From NCBI GenBank assembly GCA_016935655.1, contig JAFGQM010000091.1, positions 1-11,906 of the forward strand: a stretch of DNA of 11,906 nt, written 5' to 3'. The DNA comes from Candidatus Altarchaeota archaeon (GTDB lineage: Archaea > Altiarchaeota > Altiarchaeia > JAFGQM01). Made by a program: the position numbers and the translations under genes. Below the pieces are notes generated by a model. That model searched no databases. It saw nothing but the letters and a program-made list of their open reading frames with translations, and was not told the origin of the DNA. Positions 21-11,906 of this stretch are shown in pieces; the stretch's first letter is position 1; the number at the start of each line of letters is the position of its first letter.

Positions 21-1109
21 TCATCTCTCCCTCTCGCCTGCTATGAACTCCTCCACCATCTGCTTGCAAACGGTATCAGGATACTGGATAGGCGGACTTT
101 TCATGAAGTATGAGGAAGGTGATGTCAACGCACCGCCTACCCCCCTGTCCAAAGCGAGTTTTGCGCATCTTATGGCATCCACCATCACTCCTGCTGAGTT
201 GGGGGAATCCTCCACGGAAAGCCTGAGCTCAAGGGTCAGGGGGATGTCGCCGAATTTGCGGCCCTCCATCCTGATAAAACAGACCTTGTTGTCCTTGAGC
301 CACGGAATATAATCGGAAGGCCCTATGTGTATGTCATCAGGTGACATTGGGGTGGGGAGCTGCGACTGGACACTCTGGGTTTTGCTTATTTTCTTGCTCT
401 TCAGTCTTGACCGCTCCAGCATATTGAGGAAATCGGTATTGCCGCCCACGTTAAGTTGATAAGTGTGGTCCAGTTTGACGCCCCTGTCAACAAATAGCTT
501 GGCCAGGGTCCTATGGACTATCGTGGCGCCTACCTGGCTTTTTATATCATCCCCTATTATAGGCACTTTCTTTTCCTCGAATCTCTTGGACCATACGGCA
601 TTTGATGCTATGAAAACGGGCATCGCATTTATGAACGCCACATCGGCATCCAAACAGGCATTAGCATAATACCTTGCAGCTTCCTCGCTGCCGACGGGCA
701 GATAGGAGATGCAGACCTCTGCTCCGCTGTTGGTCAGCTCGTCCACGACGTCGATCGGCTTCTGCTTTCCGTCCACTAGGAACTTTTCTTTTGCAGTGTC
801 ACCGACCCCGTCAAGAACCGGGCCTTTTTTTACTTCTATCCCCAGTTTTGGGACATCGCTGAATTTTTTGGTGCAGTTGGGTTGCGAAAAGATGGCCTCT
901 GAAAGGTCCTTGCCCACTTTCCTGCCGTCGACATCCACGGCAGAGACGAATTTTATGTCGCTGATCTTATAACCGCCCAGAACATTGTGCATCAGGCCAG
1001 GGACTGTCTCATCTGTCCCCCCGACCTCCTTGTAATACTCAGTACCCTGGATTAGGGAGGACGCACAATTCCCCACACCAACAATAGCGACTTTTATTTT
1101 ATTAGCCAT
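21..1109 (-). CDS. ino1: inositol-1-phosphate synthase (archaeal/actinobacterial type)
   Basis: NAD-dependent L-myo-inositol-1-phosphate synthase, which isomerises glucose 6-phosphate to inositol 1-phosphate in the cytoplasm. In archaea the product feeds archaetidylinositol lipids and, in some species, di-inositol phosphate solutes. The 362-residue protein has an N-terminal Rossmann motif (GVGNCAS, residues 11-17), the [10 protein letters not shown] segment (135-144), the family-defining [11 protein letters not shown] (187-197), [14 protein letters not shown] (218-231), a lysine-rich active-site stretch (237-243) and DSPNSAGV (301-308). These blocks match, from memory, the Mycobacterium tuberculosis and Archaeoglobus enzymes in order and overall length. 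The ATG at 1109 is chosen because the family starts just before this Rossmann strand. The frame stays open to a TTG at 1214, but that extension would translate through the TATA box and the repeats. It is separated from lysA by 118 bases and probably has its own promoter. Function is near certain. Confidence 0.96.
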
Positions 1110-1132
1110 TTTCCCTATAGTTTTACAATGGT

Positions 1133-1144
1133 AAAATATAAAAA
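1133..1144 (-). promoter_or_regulatory. TATA box of ino1, nearly leaderless promoter
   Basis: Read on the minus strand this is TTTTTATATTTT. Its centre lies about 28 bases before the ino1 ATG at 1109, the usual TATA-to-start-site distance in archaea plus one to three bases. Transcription would therefore begin at or just before the start codon, giving a leaderless or nearly leaderless message. No Shine-Dalgarno sequence precedes the ATG, which fits. A second A/T-rich run (1151-1158) could be an alternative box but would give a longer leader. Confidence 0.6.
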
Positions 1145-1160
1145 TTGCAAATAAAAATTG

Positions 1161-1189
1161 GTAGTGTAACGACAAAAATGTAGTGTAAC
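1161..1189 (-). promoter_or_regulatory. tandem 10-bp direct repeat, candidate operator upstream of ino1
   Basis: The decamer GTTACACTAC (minus-strand reading) occurs perfectly at 1180-1189 and again at 1161-1170, start-to-start spacing 19 bp, roughly two helical turns. Both copies lie upstream of the TATA box, about 50-80 bases before the inferred start site, a position more typical of an activator site than of a blocking repressor. I saw no further copy in the window. The binding protein is unknown. Confidence 0.5.
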
Positions 1190-1203
1190 CCCGCTTGTTA
1201 TAG

Positions 1204-1228
1204 GTTTTCCACAAAGTTTAGGGAAAAC
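1204..1228 (-). terminator. possible hairpin at the end of lysA
   Basis: A perfect 7-bp inverted repeat (GTTTTCC at 1204-1210, GGAAAAC at 1222-1228) with an 11-base loop overlaps the lysA stop codon. It could mark the 3' end of the lysine transcript before the ino1 promoter. It is A/T-rich and not followed by a T run on the minus strand, and archaeal termination depends mainly on T runs, so this is weak. Confidence 0.25.
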
Positions 1229-2469
1229 TAGGATATCTGGCCCCTTAATAGGTCGTCGAAACCCCCTCTTTCCCTTACCAGCCTTGACTTTCCGCCCTTG
1301 GTCAAAACCTCGGCGGGTCTTGGCCTCGAGTTGTATTCGGAAGCCATGGAGAAACCATAAGCGCCAGCGTTACATATTGCTAAAACATCCCCGACACGCG
1401 CCTCCGGAATGTCACGGTCAACTGGGTCCTCCCTGTCCCTAGTCATCACATCCCCCGATTCACACACATTACCGGCAACTATGACTCTCTCTTTCTTACC
1501 ACTGACATTGCTAGCGTTGATTATCTCATGATAAGAGCCGTAGATACTTGGTCTTATGAGCTGGTTAAACCCTGTGTCAGTACCTATGAATTTGTGCTTT
1601 GGCGTTTCTTTGATTGTGTTCACTACTGTCAATAGGAAACCCGATTGGCCGACAAGATATCTCCCAGGTTCAAACATAATCGTAAGCTGCCTGCCATAAT
1701 CGTCACAAAACCTTGTGAACAGGTCCGATACGTCCTTGCCGAATTTTTTCATGTCAATCTCCTTCTCACCCGGCTTGTAGGGTATGCCTATGCCTCCACC
1801 AAAGTCCATGAAGTCTATGTTCTTGAACTCCTTTGCAACATCCATGGTTATCTTCATTGCCTGCAGGTATATATCGACGTCTAGTATCCCCGAGCCTATA
1901 TGGCTATGCACCCCCACTATCCTTAGATTATGTTCCCTTGCGATTTTCTGGGCCTCGCCCACTTTGTCGAAATAGATGCCGAATTTGCTGTCGGGCCCGC
2001 CGGTTATTATGTGTTTATGGTAGCCGGCTCCAACATCCGGGTTTATCCTTACAGAGACTTTAGTACCCGGGAATAGTCTACCGTATCTCTCAAGCTGGTT
2101 TAAGGAATCTATATTGACGAGTACCCTGTTTTTTACTGCGAACTCCATCTCGTCGTTCCTGGTGTTGTTGCCTGTGAATACTATATCCTCAGGCTTAAAC
2201 CCCAGCTTAAGGGCAAGGTGTATCTCACCGGGACTGACTGCATCAATCCCGCATCCGAGTTCCTTCAGCATCTTCAGTATCGCAAGATTGGAGTTGGCCT
2301 TGCACGCATAGAGGATTTTCTTTTTCGGGTAGTCTATGGACGAGTAGAGATTATTATACCTTTCCCTGATCACCTCTTCCTCGTAGACGTATAAAGGGCT
2401 TTCATACTTCGCTACCAAATCCTCGGCCGATACGCCGCCCAAAAATAATTTGTTGTTCTTTGCTTCCAT
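1228..2469 (-). CDS. lysA: diaminopimelate decarboxylase
   Basis: PLP-dependent enzyme that decarboxylates meso-diaminopimelate to L-lysine, the last step of the pathway encoded by the genes upstream. The 413 residues show the fold-III TIM-barrel signature: the PLP lysine in YACKANSNL (K57), the phosphate/ring-contact motif HSHIGSG (188-194), the glycine-rich FGGGIGIPY (223-231), EPGRYLVG (267-274), the catalytic cysteine in CESGD (C336) and the C-terminal YGFSMASEYNSR (371-382). Length is normal for the family. The ATG directly follows the TGA of dapF with no gap, and a short GAGGT (2474-2478) 4 bases upstream inside dapF may help re-initiation. This suggests coupled translation. The CESGD motif together with the pathway context favours LysA over related arginine or ornithine decarboxylases. 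Confidence 0.96.
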   Translation of the reverse strand: MEAKNNKLFLGGVSAEDLVAKYESPLYVYEEEVIRERYNNLYSSIDYPKKKILYACKANSNLAILKMLKELGCGIDAVSPGEIHLALKLGFKPEDIVFTGNNTRNDEMEFAVKNRVLVNIDSLNQLERYGRLFPGTKVSVRINPDVGAGYHKHIITGGPDSKFGIYFDKVGEAQKIAREHNLRIVGVHSHIGSGILDVDIYLQAMKITMDVAKEFKNIDFMDFGGGIGIPYKPGEKEIDMKKFGKDVSDLFTRFCDDYGRQLTIMFEPGRYLVGQSGFLLTVVNTIKETPKHKFIGTDTGFNQLIRPSIYGSYHEIINASNVSGKKERVIVAGNVCESGDVMTRDREDPVDRDIPEARVGDVLAICNAGAYGFSMASEYNSRPRPAEVLTKGGKSRLVRERGGFDDLLRGQIS

Positions 2470-3297
2470 TCAAACCTCGAGTTCCCCTTTGAACACTTCT
2501 TCTGCTGGACCGGTCATAAAAACCCTGTTGTCATCGCGCCAGTCTACCTCCAACACCCCGCCGGGCAGATGAACCCTGGCCTTTCTATGGGTTTTCCCGT
2601 TTAAAAAAGAGGCCACGAGTGATGCGCATGCGCCCGTCCCACAGGCCATGGTCTCCCCCACCCCCCTTTCCCAAACCCTAATCCTCAATTCATCCTTATT
2701 GAGCACTTCGACAAACTCTACGTTGGTCTTTTGGGGAAACAAGTTATTGTTCTCCACTTCTCTCCCCACGGCTTCTACCGGGTAGCTGCCTATGTCTTCC
2801 ACAAAAAGTACTGCGTGCGGGTTCCCCATCGAAACAGCTGTTATGCTTATGTTCCTGTCTTTCAATGCCAAGGGCTCATTTAATACCTTATCCGAATCCT
2901 TGCCCATCAAGGGGATGTCCCTTCTGGCAAGTTTCGGCATGCCCATGTCAACCCTTACAAGCCCATTTAAGACTTCCGGTCTTATTATGCCTGCAAGAGT
3001 CTCCACTGTCAAAGACTTCTGTTTCACCAGGCCATGGTCATATAGATACTTGGCAAAACATCTGATACCGTTTCCGCACATCTCCGCCTCCGAGCCATCG
3101 GCGTTGAATATCCTCATCCTAGAGTCTGCTTTAGAGGATTTTAGAATCAGGATTAGACCGTCTGCGCCTATCCCAAACCTCCTATGGCAAAGTCTTCTAG
3201 CGGCCTCAGGTATGTCAGAAAAGGGAACCGAAGACCTGCAATCGACAAGGATAAAATCGTTCCCCGTCCCGTGCATCTTAGTAAATCCTACGGTCAT
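2470..3297 (-). CDS. dapF: diaminopimelate epimerase
   Basis: Cofactor-independent epimerase that converts LL-diaminopimelate to meso-diaminopimelate using a pair of cysteines as acid and base. The 275-residue protein has the N-terminal KMHGTGNDF (7-15), the first catalytic cysteine in NADGSEAEMCGNGIRC (C74), the GNPHAV block (158-163) and the second catalytic cysteine in ERGVGETMACGTGAC (C219). Both cysteines are intact and the length is standard. Its ATG overlaps the dapL TGA as ATGA. A good Shine-Dalgarno sequence, AAGGAG at 3306-3311, lies 8 bases upstream within dapL and supports this start. It sits between the gene making its substrate (dapL) and the gene using its product (lysA), matching pathway order. 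Confidence 0.97.
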   Translation of the reverse strand: MTVGFTKMHGTGNDFILVDCRSSVPFSDIPEAARRLCHRRFGIGADGLILILKSSKADSRMRIFNADGSEAEMCGNGIRCFAKYLYDHGLVKQKSLTVETLAGIIRPEVLNGLVRVDMGMPKLARRDIPLMGKDSDKVLNEPLALKDRNISITAVSMGNPHAVLFVEDIGSYPVEAVGREVENNNLFPQKTNVEFVEVLNKDELRIRVWERGVGETMACGTGACASLVASFLNGKTHRKARVHLPGGVLEVDWRDDNRVFMTGPAEEVFKGELEV

Positions 3298-4457
3298 ACT
3301 TCCAGCTCCTTTATCCTACGGGCGGCCTCCTTTATCCGCCCAGTGGATGAGGTAATCGACGCCCGGAAGTAACCTTCGCCATGCTGCCCGAAAGCTGTTC
3401 CCGGTGTTACTACCACTCCCGTCTCATCCAAAAGCTTGTTGACGAAAGCCACGGAGGTCATGCCGCTTGGTACCTTCGCCCAGATGTAGAAAGTCGCCTT
3501 AGGCTTTTTTACCGGTATGCCTGCTTCGTTCAAAGCCCCGACGATGGCTGCCATGCGCTTGTCGTATTCCGGCATAGCCGGAGCCCCCCTATAATTTCTT
3601 AATGCATAGACTCCTGCAATCTGAATCGCCTCGAAGACCCCCGAATCGAGGTTCTCCTTGACCTTGGACAACCCCTTTATTATCCCGGGGTTGCCGTATG
3701 CCACTCCAAGCCTCCACCCAGTCATGTTATACGTCTTGGAAAATGAGTGGAATTCCACTCCCACATCCATAGCACCCTCGGTTTCCAGGAAGGACATGGG
3801 TTTATAGCCGTCGTAAGATATCTCACTGTATGCATTGTCTGACAAGATTATCAGATTGTTCTCAAGGGCAAAGTCCACCAAAGACTTATAAAACTCCTTG
3901 TCCGCCACTGCTGCTGTAGGATTATTCGGATAGTTAACGTACATCATCCTCGCCTTTTTAGCGGTTGCTTTGTCTATCGAGTCCAAGTCCGGTAGGAACC
4001 CGTTTTCTTCCTTTAGAGGGATAGTTACTGGCACCCCACCGCTCAAAAGCACGCCCCCGTTCTTGTAACCCGGATATGCGGGGTCGGGGACCAACACCCT
4101 GTCCCCAGAGTTCACAAATGCTCGCGCGATGTTGCACAATCCTTCCTTTGATCCCGTGAGCGCCTGTACCTCGGAATCGGGATCAAGGGTTATTCCAAAC
4201 CTCTTCTTGCTCCACTCGGACCACGCCCCCCTGAAATCCTTCCTGCCGGCATCCATGGGGTACCTATGGGTGGAGGAATCGTCGATGGCCGTCTTCATGG
4301 CATCGAGAATCCCGCGGGGGGTAGGCAAGTCAGGATCCCCTATCCCAAGGTCGACGATGTCCTTGCCCTCGGCTATCTTCTGCCTTTTCTTCTTCGTGAT
4401 CTCCGCGAAGGGGTACGGAGGTATCTTAGCGAGGTTGTCTGAGTATCTTACATCCAT
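3294..4457 (-). CDS. dapL: LL-diaminopimelate aminotransferase
   Basis: Fold-I PLP aminotransferase. From context it converts tetrahydrodipicolinate directly to LL-diaminopimelate with glutamate as amino donor, replacing the DapD/DapC/DapE steps. The 387 residues include the N-terminal IPPYPFAEI (12-20), LGIGDPDLPTP (37-47), the TGSKEG phosphate loop (101-106), YPNNPT (176-181), DNAY (207-210), the Schiff-base lysine in SFSKTYNMTGWRLG (K241) and the C-terminal GEGYFRAS (360-367) holding the substrate-carboxylate arginine. The sequence looks closest, from memory, to the DapL type found in many bacteria, and its N-terminus is shorter than in the plant enzyme. Sequence alone could also fit a general class I aminotransferase. 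Its place between dapB and dapF, and the absence of dapD, dapC or dapE here, support DapL. There is an 8-base gap after dapB and no clear Shine-Dalgarno sequence. Confidence 0.9.
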   Translation of the reverse strand: MDVRYSDNLAKIPPYPFAEITKKKRQKIAEGKDIVDLGIGDPDLPTPRGILDAMKTAIDDSSTHRYPMDAGRKDFRGAWSEWSKKRFGITLDPDSEVQALTGSKEGLCNIARAFVNSGDRVLVPDPAYPGYKNGGVLLSGGVPVTIPLKEENGFLPDLDSIDKATAKKARMMYVNYPNNPTAAVADKEFYKSLVDFALENNLIILSDNAYSEISYDGYKPMSFLETEGAMDVGVEFHSFSKTYNMTGWRLGVAYGNPGIIKGLSKVKENLDSGVFEAIQIAGVYALRNYRGAPAMPEYDKRMAAIVGALNEAGIPVKKPKATFYIWAKVPSGMTSVAFVNKLLDETGVVVTPGTAFGQHGEGYFRASITSSTGRIKEAARRIKELEV

Positions 4458-4465
4458 TTTGAGTG

Positions 4466-5287
4466 TTATTTTAGGTTTAGGACATCAAACATCCCGTATA
4501 TGCCGGGCTTCTGGTCCACCAACCATTTGATGGATGTCAAACATCCGTAGGCGAATGCATCCCTGGAATGCGCTTGATGCTTTATCTCAAGACGTTCGCC
4601 AAGGTTTGAAAACAAGACTGTATGGTCCCCTACTATGTCTCCTGCGCGCACAGAGTGTATGCCTATCTGCTTTCTATCCCTCTCCCCCACCAGACCTTTC
4701 CGCCCGTATACCGCCACAGCATCAAGGTTGCTTTTCCTAGCTTCTGCAATAAGCTCTGCCAACCTCTTGGCGGTCCCCGATGGGGCATCGGCCTTAAATC
4801 TGTGATGCGCCTCTATCAATTCGACGTCAAAATCCCGCAAGACAGCCGCCGCATCTGCAGCCAGCTTGAAAAAGAAGTTGACAGCTATCGAGAAATTCGG
4901 GGCTATGATTGCTCTTACCCTAGCCTTTTGGACAGCGTCCCTTATCTCTGCCTTTTGTTTTCCATTTAACCCGGTGGTCCCCACCACAAGGCTGATGCCG
5001 TTCCGCGCCGCGATCTTCACATTCTCCACACAGGCCTGCGGAGTCGTAAAGTCGACTAGGACCTCTGGCTTTCTTAGCTTCAGCTCTTGCTCTATTCTCT
5101 CGGCCCCGACAACTTGCACGCCAATCCGGCCCATACCCAAGACCTCTCCTATATCCTTGCCGGCAGAAGGGCTATTCGGTGCGTCTACAGCTGCAACTAC
5201 CTTGAGATCTTTTGACTCGTGTGCCCTCCTCAAAACTTGACCGGCCATTCGACCACATGCGCCGCTTACAGCAATTTTGATGGTCAT
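4466..5287 (-). CDS. dapB: 4-hydroxy-tetrahydrodipicolinate reductase
   Basis: NAD(P)H-dependent reductase that turns the DapA product, hydroxytetrahydrodipicolinate, into tetrahydrodipicolinate, the DapL substrate. The 273-residue protein begins with the nucleotide-binding GACGRMAGQ (9-17). It continues with VDFTTPQA (78-85), VVGTTGL (101-107) and APNFSIAVN (129-137), then the catalytic signature EAHHRFKADAPSGTA (159-173) with the proton-donor histidine and lysine (H161, K165 by alignment with the E. coli enzyme), and ends with HSVRAGDIVGDH (211-222). All key residues are present and the length is normal. It starts 5 bases after the dapA stop. No strong Shine-Dalgarno sequence is visible, so it probably depends on translation of dapA. 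Confidence 0.97.
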   Translation of the reverse strand: MTIKIAVSGACGRMAGQVLRRAHESKDLKVVAAVDAPNSPSAGKDIGEVLGMGRIGVQVVGAERIEQELKLRKPEVLVDFTTPQACVENVKIAARNGISLVVGTTGLNGKQKAEIRDAVQKARVRAIIAPNFSIAVNFFFKLAADAAAVLRDFDVELIEAHHRFKADAPSGTAKRLAELIAEARKSNLDAVAVYGRKGLVGERDRKQIGIHSVRAGDIVGDHTVLFSNLGERLEIKHQAHSRDAFAYGCLTSIKWLVDQKPGIYGMFDVLNLK

Positions 5288-5292
5288 TATGG

Positions 5293-6177
5293 TTATAAGA
5301 GACCCAAATCCAGAAGAACCTTCTCCAACTGGATCTTACTTTTCTCGTTAATCTGTACCAAGGGGAGCCTTGGTTTACCGGCTGCAAGACCCATCATATT
5401 CATGGCCTCCTTTATAGGGGAGGGGTTGGTCTCGATGAATATCACCCCAAACAGGTCTAGATACTTGTAATGGATGTTCCTCGAAGCATCCACATTTCCC
5501 TCCAGATACTTATGAGTCATCTCTGCCACTGCGTCTGGAGCGACATTGGAGGCAACAGATATGACTCCATGGGCCCCTAGACATAGCATGGCGTAAGTCC
5601 AGCTGTCCTCACCAGATAGCATTGTAAAGCCCTCTGGAGCCTTACGTATTATCTCCATTATCTGGTCCATGTTGCAACTGGCTTCCTTGACCCCGACAAT
5701 GTTATCAAACTCCGCTAATTTTAAGACTGTCGCCGCATCGATATTTCTGCCAGTCCTAGAAGGGACATTGTAGATGATTATCGGTATGTCCACCTCTTCA
5801 GAAAGCTTCTTGTAATGTTGGTAAAGGCCCTCCTGGGTAGGCTTGTTGTAGTAAGGCGTTATGACTAGCGCCGCATCCGCACCGGCTTCCTCGGCAAACT
5901 TGGTATAATGAACTGCCTCTTGCGTATTGTTAGATCCTGTCCCTGCAATGACCCTGGCTTTTCCTTTGGCGTGCTTAACAGTTATCTCTATTAGTAACTC
6001 ATGTTCTTCTGGTGTGAGGGTCGGTGACTCACCAGTGGTCCCCACGGGGACCAAGCCGTCTATCCCCCTATCAAGCTGGAACTTTATGTTCTTTACCAGG
6101 CCCTTTTCGTCTATACTGTTCGCTTCATCGAACGGAGTAACCAAAGCGGTATACGCACCAGAGAAATCTAGTTCCAT
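5293..6177 (-). CDS. dapA: 4-hydroxy-tetrahydrodipicolinate synthase
   Basis: Class I aldolase-type enzyme that condenses pyruvate with aspartate semialdehyde, the committed step to lysine. The 294-residue TIM barrel has GTTGESPTL (46-54), GTGSNNT (79-85), PYYNKPTQEGLYQHY (108-122), the tyrosine and arginine of IIIYNVPSRTG (Y136, R141) and the Schiff-base lysine in IVGVKEAS (K164). The arginine and GTTGES motifs favour true DapA over N-acetylneuraminate lyase or keto-deoxy-gluconate aldolase relatives. Its ATG lies 2 bases after the stop of the DUF655 gene, and only a weak AGGGA precedes it, so it appears to be transcribed and probably translated with the information-processing genes upstream. 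Bacterial enzymes are often inhibited by lysine, but nothing here tells whether this one is. Confidence 0.96.
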   Translation of the reverse strand: MELDFSGAYTALVTPFDEANSIDEKGLVKNIKFQLDRGIDGLVPVGTTGESPTLTPEEHELLIEITVKHAKGKARVIAGTGSNNTQEAVHYTKFAEEAGADAALVITPYYNKPTQEGLYQHYKKLSEEVDIPIIIYNVPSRTGRNIDAATVLKLAEFDNIVGVKEASCNMDQIMEIIRKAPEGFTMLSGEDSWTYAMLCLGAHGVISVASNVAPDAVAEMTHKYLEGNVDASRNIHYKYLDLFGVIFIETNPSPIKEAMNMMGLAAGKPRLPLVQINEKSKIQLEKVLLDLGLL

Positions 6178-6179
6178 TT

Positions 6180-6767
6180 TTATTTTTCCCTGCCGAAGTC
6201 TGGAACGAACAGTCTATGTTCTACCTCACCCTGCATCTCCTCAATGATCCTGTCAGCCAGCAGTTTTGTAACATCAGGGAGGCCTTTGACTCTCTTGTCC
6301 AAATCGTCAAAACTCTTGAATGGCTCCTTCTCCCTCTCCTCAAGAATCTTCAACAACTGCTTTTTACCTATCTTGGGCAATAGCTCCAATTGATGGTGCT
6401 TTAAACTGATTGCCTTCGCCATGTTAAAGAAATCCACGAACTTTTTTTCATTGTCCTTCACAATCTCCTCCACGACGCCCGGCAGCTCGCTCTTGGCAGT
6501 AGAGGTAAGCTCAGTGTATTTCATCCGCCTCTTTATGGTCCTGACTTTGTCCCTCTCCCCCTCGCCAACATAAACTTTTTCCCGGGCCTTGAACGCCACG
6601 CCCTCTTTTGGCGTAGTCTCCAAAATGACAAAATATTCGCATCCGACCGTCTGAGCCACTGGATACCTCTTGTAAACCGGCAACGAGGTCATGCCCTCCG
6701 GTAGGTAATCTAGAATCCTGACATGCTCTTCCCTTATCTTCTCCTCATGCCTTTCATGTTTTCTCAT
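6180..6767 (-). CDS. DUF655 helix-hairpin-helix protein
   Basis: Archaeal DUF655 family protein of 195 residues whose precise role is not established. The N-terminal half is beta-rich and includes the family-like RILDYLPEG (17-25) and a PVAQTVG...YFVILE block (37-50). The C-terminal half has two helix-hairpin-helix segments, LLPKIGKKQLLKIL (129-142) and GLPDVTKLLADRIIEEM (162-178), which suggest nucleic-acid binding. The basic N-terminus and the link to RNA polymerase subunit F and L21e fit a role in transcription, RNA or ribosome biology (inference). The ATG at 6767 is preferred because it follows the rpo4 TAA by one base. An in-frame ATG at 6803 would add 12 residues and overlap rpo4 by 35 bases. 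The gene runs straight into dapA; in many archaea, as I recall, ksgA comes next instead. Confidence 0.88.
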   Translation of the reverse strand: MRKHERHEEKIREEHVRILDYLPEGMTSLPVYKRYPVAQTVGCEYFVILETTPKEGVAFKAREKVYVGEGERDKVRTIKRRMKYTELTSTAKSELPGVVEEIVKDNEKKFVDFFNMAKAISLKHHQLELLPKIGKKQLLKILEEREKEPFKSFDDLDKRVKGLPDVTKLLADRIIEEMQGEVEHRLFVPDFGREK

Positions 6768-6768
6768 T

Positions 6769-7104
6769 TTAACTGTATTTGGCAAGAATCTCGAGTATGG
6801 CATCTATCTGCTCTGTCTCCGGCTGCTTCCTCTCCTTTGAAAAAAGAGTCCTCAGCTCATCACGCGTCTTAGGCATGATGTTGATTATCTCCACAGATTT
6901 GGTCTCCTCTATGCCCTTTGCCATCAGGTCCTTTTGCAATGCCTCGGCATCCTTTAGGGAGACCTTTGATAGTTTTTCAGCATGCGCCAAAGCCTTTTTT
7001 TGCACGTAATCAAGCTCTTCTTTCTCCTTTGACAGATCCTTCAAGATCTTTTTTACCTCGACTAACGTTACCGGCTTCTCGTAGATGAATTCTTTTACGA
7101 TCAT
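6769..7104 (-). CDS. rpoF: DNA-directed RNA polymerase subunit Rpo4/F (Rpb4 family)
   Basis: Small stalk subunit of archaeal RNA polymerase, which pairs with Rpo7/E and helps open-complex formation and RNA capture. The 111-residue, mostly helical, charged protein matches the Rpb4 family in length and layout: an N-terminal strand region (residues 1-15), charged helices with VQKKALAHAEKLSKV (34-48), then IINIMPKTRDELRTLFSKE (73-91), the conserved segment that marks the family's HRDC-like part. Its position between L21e and DUF655 is diagnostic of archaea. The L21e stop lies 3 bases upstream, and a strong Shine-Dalgarno sequence (AAGGAG, 7114-7119) sits 9 bases before the ATG inside the L21e gene, giving this subunit its own ribosome entry. 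Confidence 0.92.
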   Translation of the reverse strand: MIVKEFIYEKPVTLVEVKKILKDLSKEKEELDYVQKKALAHAEKLSKVSLKDAEALQKDLMAKGIEETKSVEIINIMPKTRDELRTLFSKERKQPETEQIDAILEILAKYS

Positions 7105-7107
7105 TTT

Positions 7108-7395
7108 CTATTTCTCCTTTTTCAAATGTACGGGATGCACTACGACTGTTTTTTCTTTGTCCATGTCTTTTATAAGAACGTCATAGCAGTTCCCGTGCTT
7201 GGCGATTACCTCGCCAGATTTTCCCTGGAATCTCAGATGAGGCATGCCATCCTGGATGCTCGAATCTATGTCGATGACCACCTTATCGCCTATCTGGAAC
7301 TTCTTTAAAATGGCATTGACTGTAGTGCGCTCCCTATGTTTCCTCATCTGCTGTCGTGAATGACCGCCCCGATTTCCACGTACCCTTTTGACCAT
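7108..7395 (-). CDS. rpl21e: 50S ribosomal protein L21e
   Basis: Archaeal/eukaryotic large-subunit ribosomal protein eL21, 95 residues. It has the very basic N-terminus MVKRVRGNRGG, the helix region RERTTVNAILKKF, and the SH3-like barrel core QIGDKVVIDIDSS, MPHLRFQGKSGEV and VVVHPVHLKK at the end, all family hallmarks. I chose the ATG at 7395 because family members begin with M(V/T)KR. A TTG two codons upstream (7401) is in frame but not needed. It is the first gene of the minus-strand string, so its leader probably controls the polymerase subunit, DUF655 and perhaps the lysine genes. The 3' end uses TAG, three bases before rpoF. Confidence 0.95.
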   Translation of the reverse strand: MVKRVRGNRGGHSRQQMRKHRERTTVNAILKKFQIGDKVVIDIDSSIQDGMPHLRFQGKSGEVIAKHGNCYDVLIKDMDKEKTVVVHPVHLKKEK

Positions 7396-7399
7396 CTTC

Positions 7400-7440
7400 A
7401 AAAAACGACGTAATTCCTCTTAACTCTGTCAGAGCAAGAG
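7400..7440 (-). promoter_or_regulatory. leader hairpin plus T6 tract before L21e, possible attenuator
   Basis: On the minus strand, positions 7440-7417 form an imperfect hairpin: outer CTCTT/AAGAG (5 bp), a G opposite TT, inner CTCT/AGAG (4 bp) and loop GAC. Eleven bases later comes a run of six T (7405-7400), then GAAG and the L21e ATG. A hairpin and U run inside a ribosomal-protein leader could be a regulatory element, such as a protein-binding site or premature terminator. Function is inferred only from this arrangement. Confidence 0.35.
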
Positions 7441-7573: not shown

Positions 7574-8695
7574 ATGGACGGAAAGCCTATCCTAAGGGGC
7601 GTAATAGGTGCATTGATAGCCTGTCTTTTTGTGGGTAGCACATACGCTTTTTCCATAGGTACCTCCCCGGGGGTCTTGGACATAGGTGAGGTGGACCCGG
7701 GCCGCACCTATGACTTCGAATTCTATTTGCTCACAAATTCCGACAGGGACCTCATAGTAAGCCTCGGTTACAAAAGCCCGCAATTGGATCTGTTCAGGAA
7801 GAACCATACCGATGTCTACAGGTTCATCCCCAAAGAGTCCTCAAATGCAGAGATCTCCAGCTGGGTCAAGTTCCCGCAGAACCCGACGGTCGTAACCTCA
7901 ACGCCGGGACCGTTGATATATGTGGGTGGGCAGCCCATCCGGCCCAACGGCAAAGCATTGGTGTCTTTGGCTGTGCCTGAAGACGCAGAGCCCTGTTATT
8001 ACATAGGCACTATCGATATCAGTCCAAGGATAGTGGGTGCGGGGGCAGGGACGGGAGTCGGCACCATAGGGATAACCAGGTTCACATTCGTCTTCAAAGT
8101 AAGGGGTGAGGTAACAGGCAGCTATCGGGACGGTATAGTTGTAGACATGGAGGGGGAAAGGGAAGCGGATGACAAGGCCAGGATTGACGTCCTCTACAAG
8201 AATACTGGGGTCTGCACCGAGCTCGTGTACGTGGACAGACTGAGCATATTCAAGGATGTCGGAGGCTACGTCACCACGACCAAGTCAGGGCCAACCCGTG
8301 TAGAGCCCGGTGAAACTAAAGTGCTGTCCACCTACTGGGTAGGGAAGGACATGAAACCGGGCAACTACAGAGCACAGGCGACGGTAAATTATTTCACCGG
8401 GTACACATATGGTGAAAAGCCTATAGTGATCCCGGAGATTATCACTAGACCACCGCCGCCTGGTGGGGTGCTGCTTGCCGGTCCTTGCGGTATACCCACA
8501 GACATCATATTGATTTTGGCTGCCGTCTTGCTTATCATCTATTGGCTTGACTTCGACAGAAAATGGCTATTGCTGGTATTGGCGACTATCGTTATCATAG
8601 TGGTGGGTAGCATCCTGATGTGCAACATGCTGCCGTGGTGGGCCATACTTTTGCCCGTATTCTTCGTATTTTTATACTTTTACTGGAAATCCTAA
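7574..8695 (+). CDS. secreted beta-domain protein with three C-terminal membrane helices
   Basis: I do not recognise this 373-residue protein. It has a Sec-type signal peptide (ILRGVIGALIACLFV core, likely cut after STYA, residue 25). A first beta-sandwich-like region (26-180) opens with SPGVLDIGEVDPGRTYDFEFYL, holds SSWVKFPQNP (95-104) and ends with PEDAEPCYYIGTIDI (135-149). A second Ig-like domain follows (about 185-288) with NTGVC and VEPGETKVLSTYW. Then come a proline-rich linker (RPPPPGG, 292-298) and three hydrophobic helices (309-325, 329-349, 353-371) with almost no tail. One N-glycosylation sequon (N77) lies outside. The likely topology is domains outside the cell and the C-terminus in the membrane. 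The first region resembles envelope 'molecular spine' domains in general layout only. It is the first gene of the plus-strand string, and the next start is one base after its stop. Confidence 0.8.
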   Translation: MDGKPILRGVIGALIACLFVGSTYAFSIGTSPGVLDIGEVDPGRTYDFEFYLLTNSDRDLIVSLGYKSPQLDLFRKNHTDVYRFIPKESSNAEISSWVKFPQNPTVVTSTPGPLIYVGGQPIRPNGKALVSLAVPEDAEPCYYIGTIDISPRIVGAGAGTGVGTIGITRFTFVFKVRGEVTGSYRDGIVVDMEGEREADDKARIDVLYKNTGVCTELVYVDRLSIFKDVGGYVTTTKSGPTRVEPGETKVLSTYWVGKDMKPGNYRAQATVNYFTGYTYGEKPIVIPEIITRPPPPGGVLLAGPCGIPTDIILILAAVLLIIYWLDFDRKWLLLVLATIVIIVVGSILMCNMLPWWAILLPVFFVFLYFYWKS

Positions 8696-8696
8696 A

Positions 8697-9266
8697 ATGG
8701 CATTTAAAGGGGGTAAAGGATCGAAAAAGATGGGGAAAAAGTTTTTAGTAAAGGCTTTAATTGTTGTTTTTGTCCTCTTCGCCATCATAGGCCTCTGGTT
8801 CCACCATGAATTGACAAGATTGCCGCCAACTCCTGCGGTATTCGTCGCTGGCAGGGACAGCACAATGGAGGAAAGCGCATTCTTCAACATAACGACGGTC
8901 AAGTATGGCACGAGCGCTGTTGTTAAGTCTCTGGAGGTCATAAACCAGACTGTCAAGATGGGAGTAAGCACCGACCCCAATGAGATAAACTGGGGGGTTG
9001 TGCCCAAGGGCGTGTTTGTTGGAAAGACGATGAACTTGGGCAACACAAGGCCCACTGATGCAAAAGTCAATATAGCTGTACACGGGGACATAAAACCGTT
9101 TGTTAGCGTGGTTGGAGGCGACACTTTCATACTGAAGAGCGGTGAAAGCAAGAGCGTTGAGCTCTTGTTTAATGCCTCGGAGATCGGCGAGTACGTGGGA
9201 GAAATTGATGTCTATATACGCATCCCGAAGAACTGGCTCGTCAAATCATTCCTGGACTTAGCTTAA
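8697..9266 (+). CDS. N-terminally anchored single beta-domain surface protein
   Basis: Unrecognised 189-residue protein. A short basic start (MAFKGGKGSKKMGKK) precedes one hydrophobic helix (16-35), giving an N-in, C-out anchor without an obvious cleavage site. A proline-containing spacer (RLPPTPA, 41-47) leads to a beta-rich domain: NWGVVPKGVFVGKTMNLGNT (98-117) and KSGESKSVELLFNASEIGEYVGEIDVYI. This pattern, of a 'value comes from matching the chain' strand, a GNT turn and a GEY-G-I final strand, is like ASH/Ig-type beta sandwiches. Three sequons (N64, N84, N159) fit exposure outside the cell. The start is one base after the preceding stop (TAA-A-ATG). A second ATG at residue 12 is possible, but the first keeps the positive charges expected for the topology. 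It is probably a partner of its neighbours in one envelope complex (inference). Confidence 0.75.
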   Translation: MAFKGGKGSKKMGKKFLVKALIVVFVLFAIIGLWFHHELTRLPPTPAVFVAGRDSTMEESAFFNITTVKYGTSAVVKSLEVINQTVKMGVSTDPNEINWGVVPKGVFVGKTMNLGNTRPTDAKVNIAVHGDIKPFVSVVGGDTFILKSGESKSVELLFNASEIGEYVGEIDVYIRIPKNWLVKSFLDLA

Positions 9267-9283
9267 TTTTGGATAGGCACAAA

Positions 9284-10189
9284 ATGAAGAGATATGCACT
9301 GCCCATATTGTTAATCTTGGCCTTGCCCTTGGTTTCAGGCTTGATGGTCCGGGTAGAGGTCAGAGGGACCATAGAGGGCAACATACCCTACCAGGAGATA
9401 ACGGATGGGCTCCAAGACCGACCTTTTAGGTTCCTGATAACCTGGGAGAACACAGGTTCAGTCGGGTGTGATGTCGTCCTGCGTACGGATGTCTATGCTA
9501 AAGAGGCGGAAAAAAAGAGCCATGTATACACGGCCTGGAGTGAGAGCACGCCTATAGAAAGTGGGGCGACTGGCAATATAGAGGCCTATTGGCTGCCCGG
9601 GGAACCGGGAGAATATGAGGCCAACCTCTCGATAATCCTGTGTAACAACTTCCTCCAAGTTCTGCAGGCAAACATAAGCATAAATGAGTCTCAGGGAACC
9701 TTTGAAAAGGCGCCCTTCGAGGTCCTGCGCGTGGAAAACGACGAAAAACAAGTCGAATTTGAGGTGAAATCCGAGGAAGACCTAGAAGAGCTCATAATAA
9801 TCCCGACCAAATACCCCCTGGGATGGAGGGTTGATTCGAAGGCTTTCCGAAACATTGGGGGGGATGAGCCAAAAATCCTAAGCCTGGATTACGAGCCCGG
9901 CATAAAGGGGGAAAAAGAGATAACCTTTGAGCTTCTGGCCAACGGGGGCAAGTATAAAAAACTGCTGTTCTACACGATCTCGTTGGAGAAGAAACGGGAC
10001 TTTTGGAGCATATGGACCATACCCCTTTTAATATTTTTAGTTGTTATTTTAACCGCATCCAATCTATGCCTGCTCCAGAGGGAACGGCTATCACGCTTTA
10101 AGAGGAAGTACCTGACCAAAGGCTACCTGGGGCCGAAATTGGACAAATTCAGGAAGGAACGGGCCCGAAAAAAGGAAAAGAAGGATTAA
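9284..10189 (+). CDS. surface protein: signal peptide, Ig-like domain, membrane helix, basic tail
   Basis: Unrecognised 301-residue protein. The signal peptide is MKRYALPILLILALPLVSG. An Ig-like domain follows (about 22-135) with ITWENTGSVGC (52-62) and the IESGATGNIEAYWLPGEPGEYEANLSI run, clearly like domain 2 of the first gene in this string. A second beta-rich, acidic region spans about 140-235. A membrane helix (244-264) and a cytoplasmic tail of about 37 residues dense in K and R (RFKRKYL...KKEKKD) close the protein. Sequons at N114, N130 and N134 lie outside. The ATG at 9284 is preferred over the in-frame TTG at 9269 because it starts the signal peptide exactly. The basic tail is the only sizeable cytoplasmic part among the three complete surface proteins, so it could be what meets the MinD-like ATPase encoded next (inference). 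Confidence 0.78.
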   Translation: MKRYALPILLILALPLVSGLMVRVEVRGTIEGNIPYQEITDGLQDRPFRFLITWENTGSVGCDVVLRTDVYAKEAEKKSHVYTAWSESTPIESGATGNIEAYWLPGEPGEYEANLSIILCNNFLQVLQANISINESQGTFEKAPFEVLRVENDEKQVEFEVKSEEDLEELIIIPTKYPLGWRVDSKAFRNIGGDEPKILSLDYEPGIKGEKEITFELLANGGKYKKLLFYTISLEKKRDFWSIWTIPLLIFLVVILTASNLCLLQRERLSRFKRKYLTKGYLGPKLDKFRKERARKKEKKD

Positions 10190-10190
10190 G

Positions 10191-10216
10191 GTTTTTATTA
10201 AACCTACAGTTATAAA
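10191..10216 (+). promoter_or_regulatory. A/T-rich gap before the MinD-like gene, possible internal promoter
   Basis: The 38-base gap contains TTTTTATTAAA (10192-10202), centred about 30 bases before the ATG at 10228, and TATAAAT (10211-10217). The first is well placed for leaderless transcription of the ATPase gene; its T run could instead act as a weak terminator for the upstream gene. The other gaps in this string are shorter (1-17 bases) and show no such box. Confidence 0.35.
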
Positions 10217-10227
10217 TCCGGTCGAAT

Positions 10228-10974
10228 ATGCAAAGGGTTATTGGAGTACTGTCCGGCAAGGGTGGCGTAGGGAAAACCGTTACATCAATCAACCTAGGCG
10301 CTGCACTACATGAATTCGGGCAGGACAACACAATAGTCGACGCAGACATAAGCAGTGCAAATCTTACCATCCATCTCGGCCTGCCGGATTCCACCATCTC
10401 ACTCCAAGATGTCCTAGACGGTGAGGCACACATATTCAAAGCGTTAAGGGTCATACCCAGAGGCATGAAAATAGTCCCAGCATCCATATCCCTGGAAAAA
10501 AACATATCCGACCTGACCAGGCTGGGCGACGTTGTGAGGGGCGGCTTGGACGGCTTGACCATACTGGATTCCCCCCCGGGGTTCAGCAAGGAGGTCTACC
10601 ACATTATGAAGGCCTCTGACGACATCCTCATGATAACCAATCCCGATGTGCCATCCGTAACAGACGCGGTCAAAATAATAGAGATCGCCAAGAAGATGGA
10701 AAAGAACGTGCTGGGCATAGTGGTCAACAGGGTGAATGGCGACTCGTTTGAGGTCATGCCCCACGAAATCGAAGCCCTTTGCGAAGTACCCGTCGTATCA
10801 AAAGTCCCTGAGGACAAGAACATCAAAAGGGCTATATTCGAGAGGATACCCATAGTGTACCACTCGCCCTACTCACCAGCCTCTATTGAGTTCAGATACC
10901 TGGCGGCCAGATTACTAGGTAAGTCTTATATCCCACCGAGGATGTTATTCTTAAGGAGGGTGTTCAACCTTTAA
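10228..10974 (+). CDS. MinD/ParA-family ATPase with a C-terminal membrane-targeting-like segment
   Basis: Deviant-Walker P-loop ATPase of 248 residues. The P-loop SGKGGVGKT (9-17) carries both the signature lysine (K11) and the phosphate lysine (K16). The switch I aspartate is in IVDADISSANL (36-46), Walker B is LTILDSPPG (110-118) and NRVN (167-170) is the base-contact region. MinD-type proteins dimerise with ATP and organise partners on membranes. The last residues, MLFLRRVFNL (239-248), are short, amphipathic and basic, and resemble the FLKRLF ending of the E. coli MinD membrane-targeting sequence. Archaeal MinD homologues position chemotaxis arrays, archaella and other envelope structures, so with surface-protein genes on both sides a role in placing or assembling an envelope structure is the likeliest reading (inference). 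A plain chromosome-partitioning ParA is less likely, since no ParB is seen. The next gene begins 16 bases later. Confidence 0.9.
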   Translation: MQRVIGVLSGKGGVGKTVTSINLGAALHEFGQDNTIVDADISSANLTIHLGLPDSTISLQDVLDGEAHIFKALRVIPRGMKIVPASISLEKNISDLTRLGDVVRGGLDGLTILDSPPGFSKEVYHIMKASDDILMITNPDVPSVTDAVKIIEIAKKMEKNVLGIVVNRVNGDSFEVMPHEIEALCEVPVVSKVPEDKNIKRAIFERIPIVYHSPYSPASIEFRYLAARLLGKSYIPPRMLFLRRVFNL

Positions 10975-10990
10975 GAGAGAGACATGTAAG

Positions 10991-11906
10991 ATGCCACGGA
11001 ACCAGAAGTTTTTGATACTTGTAGTCCTATTTGTTCTTTTAAGCGTTAGCTTTGCTTCTGGTGCTCTCGAGGTGAGCGATGTGACTCTCTCCCCGACAAT
11101 ACTCTGGCTGCACAAGAACCCCGATCTCACGATCTCCGCAAAATGCGCCCTCGACGGGGTCATTTTGCCAAACGCCACCGTTAAGGCGGACATCTACCCG
11201 CCAAGCTCCAATGTACCGCTGACCTCTCCTAGCCTCGCATACGACCAGAACAGTGAGAGGTACAAAAAGACATTCCAGGCATCGTTCAGTGCCACTGGTA
11301 CTTATACGGTCAAGGTGACTTGCAGTTATCAAGCCGGCAGCGCGACAGCCCAGGAAAATTTTATAGGCAACAAGCTGGAGCTCAGGATTATAAACGACAT
11401 AGGGAACCCCGCAGATGCATATATGGGGGGCAAGCTCTCCCTTCATGTCGAATTGCTAAGGAACAACGCCCTTGTTTCACCGTCCCAGGACACCTTCGAG
11501 GTCTGGGTGGGCAAGGAAAAGTTGAGTGTCATATCGCTGCCGATAATAGACGGCAAATACCAAAAGATCGAGGTGAAGATACCCCTGGACCCGGCTGAAC
11601 TGACTGTGGGCGTATACGATTTAAAGGTCAATGCCAAGTATGAGGGAAGCAATGTAGAGTCTGCCCTGGACGATGTGATCCGCGTCAACACCCCGCTGAC
11701 CATGGACGTAACCGACGAGAAAGTGAAATGCCCGGCGGGTTTGGCCTGCAGCGAAAGCGTTAATGCAAAGGTGGTTTTCCACGATGGGGACATAGGGGAT
11801 TTCACGGCCGACAAGAACTTCCAGGCTCTCCTGAAAGACGGCAAGAAGTGGATTACCGTGTATGTCTCTGACGTCCAATGCAACGCGGTATCGGAGAGTT
11901 GCATCA
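10991..11906 (+). CDS. large secreted Ig-like multi-domain surface protein, 3' end outside window
   Basis: Open frame from the ATG at 10991 to the window edge, 305 residues seen and no stop. A signal peptide (KFLILVVLFVLLSVSFASG, cut near residue 24) is followed by at least three tandem beta-sandwich-like units: about 26-128 (with a C52/C111 pair), 129-235 (LRIINDIGNPADAYMGGKLSL...GVYDLKVNAKYEG) and from 236 onwards (C247, C253, C297, C304). Even cysteine spacing suggests disulfides outside the cell. Repeating phrases such as GTYTVKVT and GVYDLKVN mark final strands of Ig/MG2-like domains. I do not recognise a named family. Macroglobulin-like or CARDB-like surface proteins are possible. It follows the MinD-like gene by 16 bases and probably shares its transcript. 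Whether it has a membrane anchor cannot be told. Confidence 0.8.
   Translation, partial: MPRNQKFLILVVLFVLLSVSFASGALEVSDVTLSPTILWLHKNPDLTISAKCALDGVILPNATVKADIYPPSSNVPLTSPSLAYDQNSERYKKTFQASFSATGTYTVKVTCSYQAGSATAQENFIGNKLELRIINDIGNPADAYMGGKLSLHVELLRNNALVSPSQDTFEVWVGKEKLSVISLPIIDGKYQKIEVKIPLDPAELTVGVYDLKVNAKYEGSNVESALDDVIRVNTPLTMDVTDEKVKCPAGLACSESVNAKVVFHDGDIGDFTADKNFQALLKDGKKWITVYVSDVQCNAVSESCI

Follow-up and report, generated by a model that had tools for sequence, protein, structure and literature searches.

The stretch of DNA analysed here (the window) is 11,906 nucleotides long and covers positions 1 to 11,906 of contig JAFGQM010000091.1 from a Candidatus Altarchaeota archaeon (GenBank assembly GCA_016935655.1). 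Its plus strand carries a string of five genes, P1-P2-P3-MinD-P5, which we describe as a candidate for a machine, so far undescribed, by which these archaea would build or anchor part of their outer coat. P1 (7574-8695, an open reading frame of 373 residues) encodes a signal peptide, two beta domains and three C-terminal helices. It is followed by P2 (8697-9266, 189 residues), with an N-terminal hydrophobic anchor and a single ASH/PapD-like Ig domain, and by P3 (9284-10189), which has 301 residues from its ATG, or 306 from an alternative TTG start at 9269, and combines a signal peptide, an orphan (probably beta) domain, a C-terminal hydrophobic segment and a basic tail. The MinD-type ATPase (10228-10974, 248 residues) comes next. 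P5 runs from 10991 to the window end at 11906, where it is cut without a stop after the first 305 residues of a large multi-domain surface protein. An earlier note, made from the letters of this DNA alone, had described a tightly spaced plus-strand string with gaps of 1-38 bases, and the reading frames bear this out (the gaps are 1, 17, 38 and 16 bases). P1, P2, P3 and P5 of the window match nothing above curated cut-offs in Pfam or NCBIfam.

The order of these genes recurs in dozens of genomes, and the string is therefore more than chance. Among 5.8 billion proteins, three relatives of P1 and two of P3 were found besides the window's own; one P1 relative and one P3 relative lie on contigs of equal length (7654 bases). 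A four-sequence P1 alignment, scanned against genome contigs, brought up six loci (L001-L006) with the record labels Altiarchaeales, Aenigmatarchaeota (two), Nanohalarchaeota and 'archaeon' (two); P3 adjoins P1 in all six, and P2 was matched at once in five, that of L006 being recovered via a profile. With a nine-sequence P1 profile (E<=1e-15), P1 was detected in 75 of 247 genomes across four archaeal phyla: 9 of 29 in the phylum of L001 (11 at 1e-4), 22 of 34 in that of L002-L004 (the second phylum below), 35 of 156 in that of L005 and L006, and 9 of 28 in a fourth. Sampling 394 relatives of the L001 genome yielded 36 P1 matches, all in the same four phyla (the number sampled outside those phyla is not given). 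No P1 relative was found on viral contigs.

Gene order was read over up to 20 kb around 69 places, with genes from a simple caller script and labels from profiles, and the final set holds 73 loci with P1, the window included. Left out were L099 and L131 (duplicates of L003 and L005), L117 (no P1 gene survived the gene caller) and the weak-match L013 and L022-L024; L007-L012, L014-L021 and L025-L071 are the same places as longer loci, and the P1 matches in genomes G185, G158 and G115 are not in the expanded loci. P1-P2-P3 lie on one strand in 64 of the 70 loci that have at least 1.2 kb downstream, and in almost every locus P2 comes after P1. Of the 51 loci that reach at least 6 kb downstream, 47 hold a P5-type gene no more than 9 kb away; the P5 label here also takes in other, longer multi-Ig proteins. 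The median gaps are short (1 base for P1-P2, 3 for P2-P3 and 3 for MinD-P5), so the genes are probably co-transcribed. By gene content and order, P1-P2-P3 with P5 is a conserved unit in four archaeal phyla, and the uncharacterised envelope module proposed in the earlier note stands. A full-text literature search, reaching titles and the openings of abstracts and leaving most subscription papers outside, returned no description of such a module.

The module has a secreted partner, c0, which the original reading could not see because it lies outside the window. This protein of ~300 residues is encoded beside P1, singly or as up to four paralogues, and was found within 9 kb in 25 of the 39 loci having both flanks. 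Among the 156 genomes of the L005/L006 phylum, P1 and c0 occur together in 33, P1 alone in 2, c0 alone in 6 and neither in 115 (Fisher 2.5e-25; the Fisher tests used throughout ignore kinship and genome incompleteness). The link of c0 to the module is well supported, by genome-wide co-occurrence in this one phylum and by neighbourhood in the others. The original observation is confirmed, and it now extends to a module that is widespread in archaea and has a secreted partner tightly linked to it.

The predicted fold of c0 is a beta-sandwich with a conserved N-terminal strand that finds no partner in the monomer. Its model has a pLDDT (predicted local distance difference test) of 88.6, with residues 22-31 under 50, a mean of 58 in the block 31-40 and no strand assigned before residue 45. 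In this low-scoring part, hydrophobic residues occupy positions 35, 37 and 39 in 40 of 40 homologues and positions 36, 38 and 40 in at most 20 percent. A conserved, alternating strand that lacks a partner is what a donor strand would look like, and the donor-strand idea developed below stems mainly from it. By model and conservation together, c0 is predicted to share a trait of strand-complemented fibre subunits: it is secreted, folds as a beta-sandwich and, as a monomer, leaves its N-terminal strand without a partner. Its fold likeness to fibre subunits is suggestive only: the TasA fibre and the CanA cannula are the first two Foldseek rows and CfaB fimbrial subunits rank 12, at E values of 0.02 or worse, and the VIA scores are 7.5 for TLP-1b (nature not checked), 6.3 for FimG, 6.1 for TasA, 5.8 for CanA and 5.7 for Caf1. 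Family scans gave no relevant match for c0 in Pfam (one c0 scanned) or NCBIfam (six scanned), with no WxL domain among them, and profile searches of the PDB with c0 returned nothing relevant. One c0 relative (P0021) is annotated as Candidatus Anstonellales archaeon, and c0 may reach this further archaeal group.

P1 is the module's most diagnostic gene. Its AlphaFold2 model has beta domains at ~23-176 and ~187-286, followed by the three C-terminal helices, and its best fold matches are the WxLIP chains 9i25_C and 9i1y, with pilus chaperones next. Together with the co-occurrence of c0, this match is one of two new pointers to a function. WxLIP proteins are membrane-anchored partners of bacterial surface proteins. 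Their layout of two tandem Ig-type domains and a C-terminal membrane helix is found in P1 in predicted structure only. P1 is predicted to have two domains of the WxLIP-like, PapD-like type and to be held by one or more of its C-terminal helices. The WxLIP profiles PF06030 (WxLIP_PGBD) and PF11797 (WxLIP_HBD) match none of the 9 members of P1 alignment A3 at E<=10. PF06030 rises above its cut-off in none of 8 module genomes, its sub-threshold matches lying elsewhere than in P1, and PDB profile searches with P1 yielded nothing relevant.

The earlier note spoke of four Ig-like surface proteins, which is upheld for P1 and P2 and is only suggested for the other two. P2 matches Cep192_D4 of the Cep192/HYDIN Ig-type (ASH) family below threshold (27.9 bits, cut-off 35.5, E 2.8e-6) and is related to a P1 domain in profile comparison (89 percent). 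P3 has no Pfam match at E<=1, and the part of P5 in the window has sub-threshold Ig-like Pfam matches only. The same note took the large last protein to be simply secreted, which is probably wrong. Among P5 relatives of 700-1000 residues, 51 of 52 have a C-terminal hydrophobic segment followed by a tail, which is invisible here because the window ends inside P5; 48 loci hold a P5 of this length with such a segment. By a plain hydropathy threshold, used for the membrane segments of both P3 and P5, relatives of ~750-990 residues end in a C-terminal membrane segment and a cytosolic tail, and P5 is predicted to join the outside of the cell to the cytosol.

We considered the tails of P3 and P5 as possible contacts for MinD. 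The basic tail of P3, proposed in the earlier note as the recruiter, fails as a general rule, as 33 of 66 P3 proteins have a C-terminal hydrophobic segment and 33 do not. A weak association remains, with MinD nearby for 20 of 23 P3 proteins with the segment and 15 of 26 without (Fisher p 0.03), and in the window's lineage the tail may still play this part. In P5, the pattern [ILVMFY]xx[IVLM][KR]xx[ILVMF], picked after viewing the tails, occurs in 39 of 51 otherwise divergent tails (1000 shuffles: mean 6.2, maximum 14). We rejected this cytosolic motif as a MinD dock: the loci without a near MinD all carry it (13 of 13), as against 25 of 35 that do have a MinD nearby (p 0.04), so it is, if anything, commoner without MinD and is therefore no marker of MinD binding. 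The P5 tails of the fourth phylum (L141, L142, L143, L144 and L146) are acidic and, by eye in these 5 loci, end in a zinc-finger-like CxxC...HxxxxH motif.

The ATPase of the window is of the archaeal MinD type, as first proposed. It scores 223.5 bits with TIGR01969 (minD_arch, cut-off 201.75), its best solved relative is MinD-1 (1hyq, E 2.6e-47), and its alignment and place in a MinD tree agree. The coding pattern of the Walker A motif GGVGKT matches once, at 10261-10280, and in none of 200 shuffles. As for an amphipathic, membrane-targeting C-terminus, a mark of archaeal MinD, the C-termini compared finish in short basic-hydrophobic stretches; the helical moment of the window's stretch, 0.30, is the lowest listed, on a scale whose threshold is uncalibrated. 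A MinD gene lies within 9 kb in 36 of the 51 loci having at least 6 kb downstream, and on the same strand in 27 of these 36, one of which (L145) rests on an unexamined frame of 2,182 residues.

Across genomes, MinD proteins were divided at 300 bits with profile A7, a split chosen by eye from a gap in the scores with a profile that itself contains module MinDs. In the L001 phylum, a MinD above 300 bits is present in 9 of 9 genomes with a strong P1 and in 1 of 20 others (G014, which has a weak P1 match, E 1.4e-5; p 1e-6). All 34 genomes of the second phylum have some MinD paralogue, and the high class is found in 12 of 22 with P1 and 2 of 12 without (p 0.07 alone). With the two phyla pooled, a high-class MinD is found in 21 of 31 genomes with P1, as against 3 of 32 that lack P1 (p 1.7e-6). 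A 96-row tree places the window's MinD in a group (97/91) with MinDs of the L001 phylum and one from L102. This group belongs to a clade of 42 rows (94/94) in which module MinDs from each of the four phyla are found. Twenty-five of the 41 module-adjacent rows fall inside this clade and 16 outside, and the adjacency label changes 16 times on the tree (shuffled mean 31). From these comparisons, MinD accompanies the unit in most, not all, lineages and is a real but replaceable, losable partner of the module. The claim that it belongs to the module is right for many lineages, and not as a universal rule.

Beyond the shared genes, some loci carry extras. In 7 loci of the L001 phylum (L001 at 2329-3114, L072, L073, L074, L076, L077 and L078) a KaiC-like ATPase gene follows P3, an identity established by family search in L001 only; the window, L075 and L079 have no such gene at this position. 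In L004, a relative of CheX/CheC-like chemotaxis phosphatases (2375-2962; sub-threshold, E 5.8e-4) lies between P1 and P2. Large TadC-like membrane proteins and small pilin-like genes lie directly upstream of P1 in L116, L127 and L128. In L128 (2315-6374) these are a 696-residue membrane protein and four small genes with pilin-like N-termini. A family search, made on L128 only, matched the membrane protein to T2SSF below threshold (E 6e-4; 20.2 bits, cut-off 25.2). Genes of the c1, c2 and NEW3 types also lie near the module in loci other than the window: among the 39 loci with both flanks, c1 is within 12 kb in 16 and a NEW3-type protein in 14. A second trio, of c1 (a secreted beta protein of ~280-1460 residues), c2 (~180-260 residues) and N3 (with a C-terminal membrane segment), is found near the module in L005, L087, L089, L090, L092, L095, L096, L108, L109, L121, L123 and L125. 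A parallel to the small and long WxL proteins was dropped, since no relation to c0 could be detected in the C-terminal part of c1 (0.1 percent probability in hhalign).

In the window itself, the five module genes point away from an adjoining, tight minus-strand run (21-7401) that includes lysine-pathway genes and whose members, read by eye, we take to be L21e, Rpo4, a DUF655-type gene, dapA, dapB, an aminotransferase, dapF, lysA and inositol-phosphate synthase. We agree with the earlier note, by eye over the reading frames and with the minus-strand genes not family-searched, that the window has no pilin or archaellum gene. No secretion ATPase, TadC/ArlJ-type platform or class III pilin was recognised by eye in its frames either, a statement made with no systematic ATPase search.

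The reading that we prefer, tentatively and as one still somewhat more doubtful than probable, is that P1, P2, P3 and P5 make up a platform at the membrane, placed in most lineages by MinD, on which strand complementation serves to hold c0 and perhaps also to polymerise it. In such a scheme c0 would be exported by Sec, and P1, along with the PapD-like P2, would use strand complementation to keep it at the membrane. From there c0 would be handed on or anchored to give a fibre, sheath or coat, with the N-terminal strands as links between subunits. The platform would be completed by P3 and P5, which would reach the cytosol, and MinD would cluster or place the platforms. This placing role is proposed because MinD2 and MinD4 of Haloferax, according to a published account (PMC11588486), influence where archaella and chemosensory arrays are placed. 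The steps that we infer are strand exchange, polymerisation and positioning by MinD. A bolder version, which we consider unlikely if still a serious contender, makes this an undescribed archaeal machine for strand-complemented surface fibres, in which P1-P2-P3-P5, as a membrane-tethered chaperone/anchor complex, takes over from periplasmic chaperone and usher in single-membrane cells, a dedicated MinD does the placing, and the system occurs in Altiarchaeota as well as in several other phyla of small archaea.

Several results weigh against a MinD-positioned platform for c0. Unrelated ciliary and hexosaminidase VIA rows reach 8.0 and 7.8 for c0, above the fibre subunits, and because its fold matches do not exceed such rows we slightly lowered our confidence in both the preferred reading and its bolder version. 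High-scoring MinD is missing from 10 of the 22 P1-bearing genomes of the second phylum, and MinD is not near the module in 15 of 51 loci. The earlier note had held that homologues of the surface proteins scattered without the ATPase in related genomes would speak against its module. To this extent they do, and a module "built around" MinD gives way to one whose core is P1-P2-P3-P5. That MinD is not always near also suits an unlikely but credible rival, in which the coat is not filamentous and consists of c0 and the large c1-type proteins, P1, P2, P3 and P5 are stalks that anchor this coat or S-layer at a fixed distance from the membrane, and MinD serves spacing or housekeeping only. Every extracellular part is a beta-domain protein with an anchor, one to four c0 paralogues stand beside the module, and large multi-Ig proteins lie near the module in many loci, as such a coat would have it. 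A flat coat, however, needs no unpaired conserved N-terminal strand in c0, and P1 resembles chaperone-like partners. Nor was an S-layer family matched, although none was specifically searched for: the Pfam and NCBIfam scans of single members named no such family, and the VIA lists, which are not a test of them, turned up no S-layer or archaellum stator protein.

It is quite improbable, in our view, that MinD is incidental, an ordinary paralogue co-transcribed with an adhesion or envelope operon and acting elsewhere, for example in division or chromosome placement. The 15 loci without a near MinD would fit this, as would its several positions and both orientations and a tree that requires at least several independent associations, yet high-scoring MinD tracks P1 in the pooled genomes (by a test not fully independent, given the module MinDs in the profile) and sits a median of only 3 bases from P5. 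Still less probable is an accessory module for a type IV pilus or archaellum, serving as scaffold or stator for a pilus-type motor encoded elsewhere. The genes before P1 in L116, L127 and L128, with the T2SSF match of the last, hint at it, as do the KaiC-like ATPases (ArlH superfamily) of 7 loci, the CheX-like gene of L004 and the placing of archaella by MinD in Haloferax, but the pilus-like context was seen in 3 of 73 loci, in a survey that did not take in pilus ATPases across the genomes, and where the ArlH cut-off is 215 bits the KaiC-like protein reaches 39.6. Returning to the preferred platform reading, the module supplies co-occurring candidates for an assembly pathway of archaeal strand-complemented fibres in four phyla of uncultured archaea, and it ties a cytosolic ATPase by operon to a presumed surface cargo. 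The idea is testable with a few recombinant proteins.

Chaperone-usher pili (FimC, Caf1M, YadV) are among the closest known systems, as are the WxL clusters of Gram-positive bacteria. WxLIP, made of DUF916, DUF3324 and a transmembrane segment (PDB 9i1y, 9i25), has a layout like that of P1, with a signal peptide, two Ig-type domains and a C-terminal membrane part; its chains are the best fold matches of P1, and P1 too goes with secreted partners. WxLIP is predicted to insert a strand into WxL (PMC10599100). In contrast, P1 has no WxLIP profile match and the scanned c0 proteins have no WxL domain, and the WxL clusters are bacterial whereas the module is archaeal; as far as the accessible descriptions go, they also have no counterpart to P2, P3, P5 or MinD.

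The MinD of the module belongs to the same archaeal family (TIGR01969) as MinD2 and MinD4 of Haloferax, but it is encoded in one operon with the cargo presumed for it, and the window shows neither archaellum nor chemotaxis genes. Strand-complemented fibres, namely Sulfolobus threads, TasA/TapA and the Pyrodictium cannulae (CanA), resemble c0 as a secreted beta-sandwich with an unpaired N-terminal strand, and TasA and CanA are its top Foldseek rows. They differ in that the scores of c0 are weak and show no sequence kinship, and in that c0 is only a presumed former of fibres. For the threads, the published account describes the assembly pathway as unknown, with no chaperone or usher assignable (PMC9715654), whereas c0 is accompanied by a conserved set of membrane proteins.

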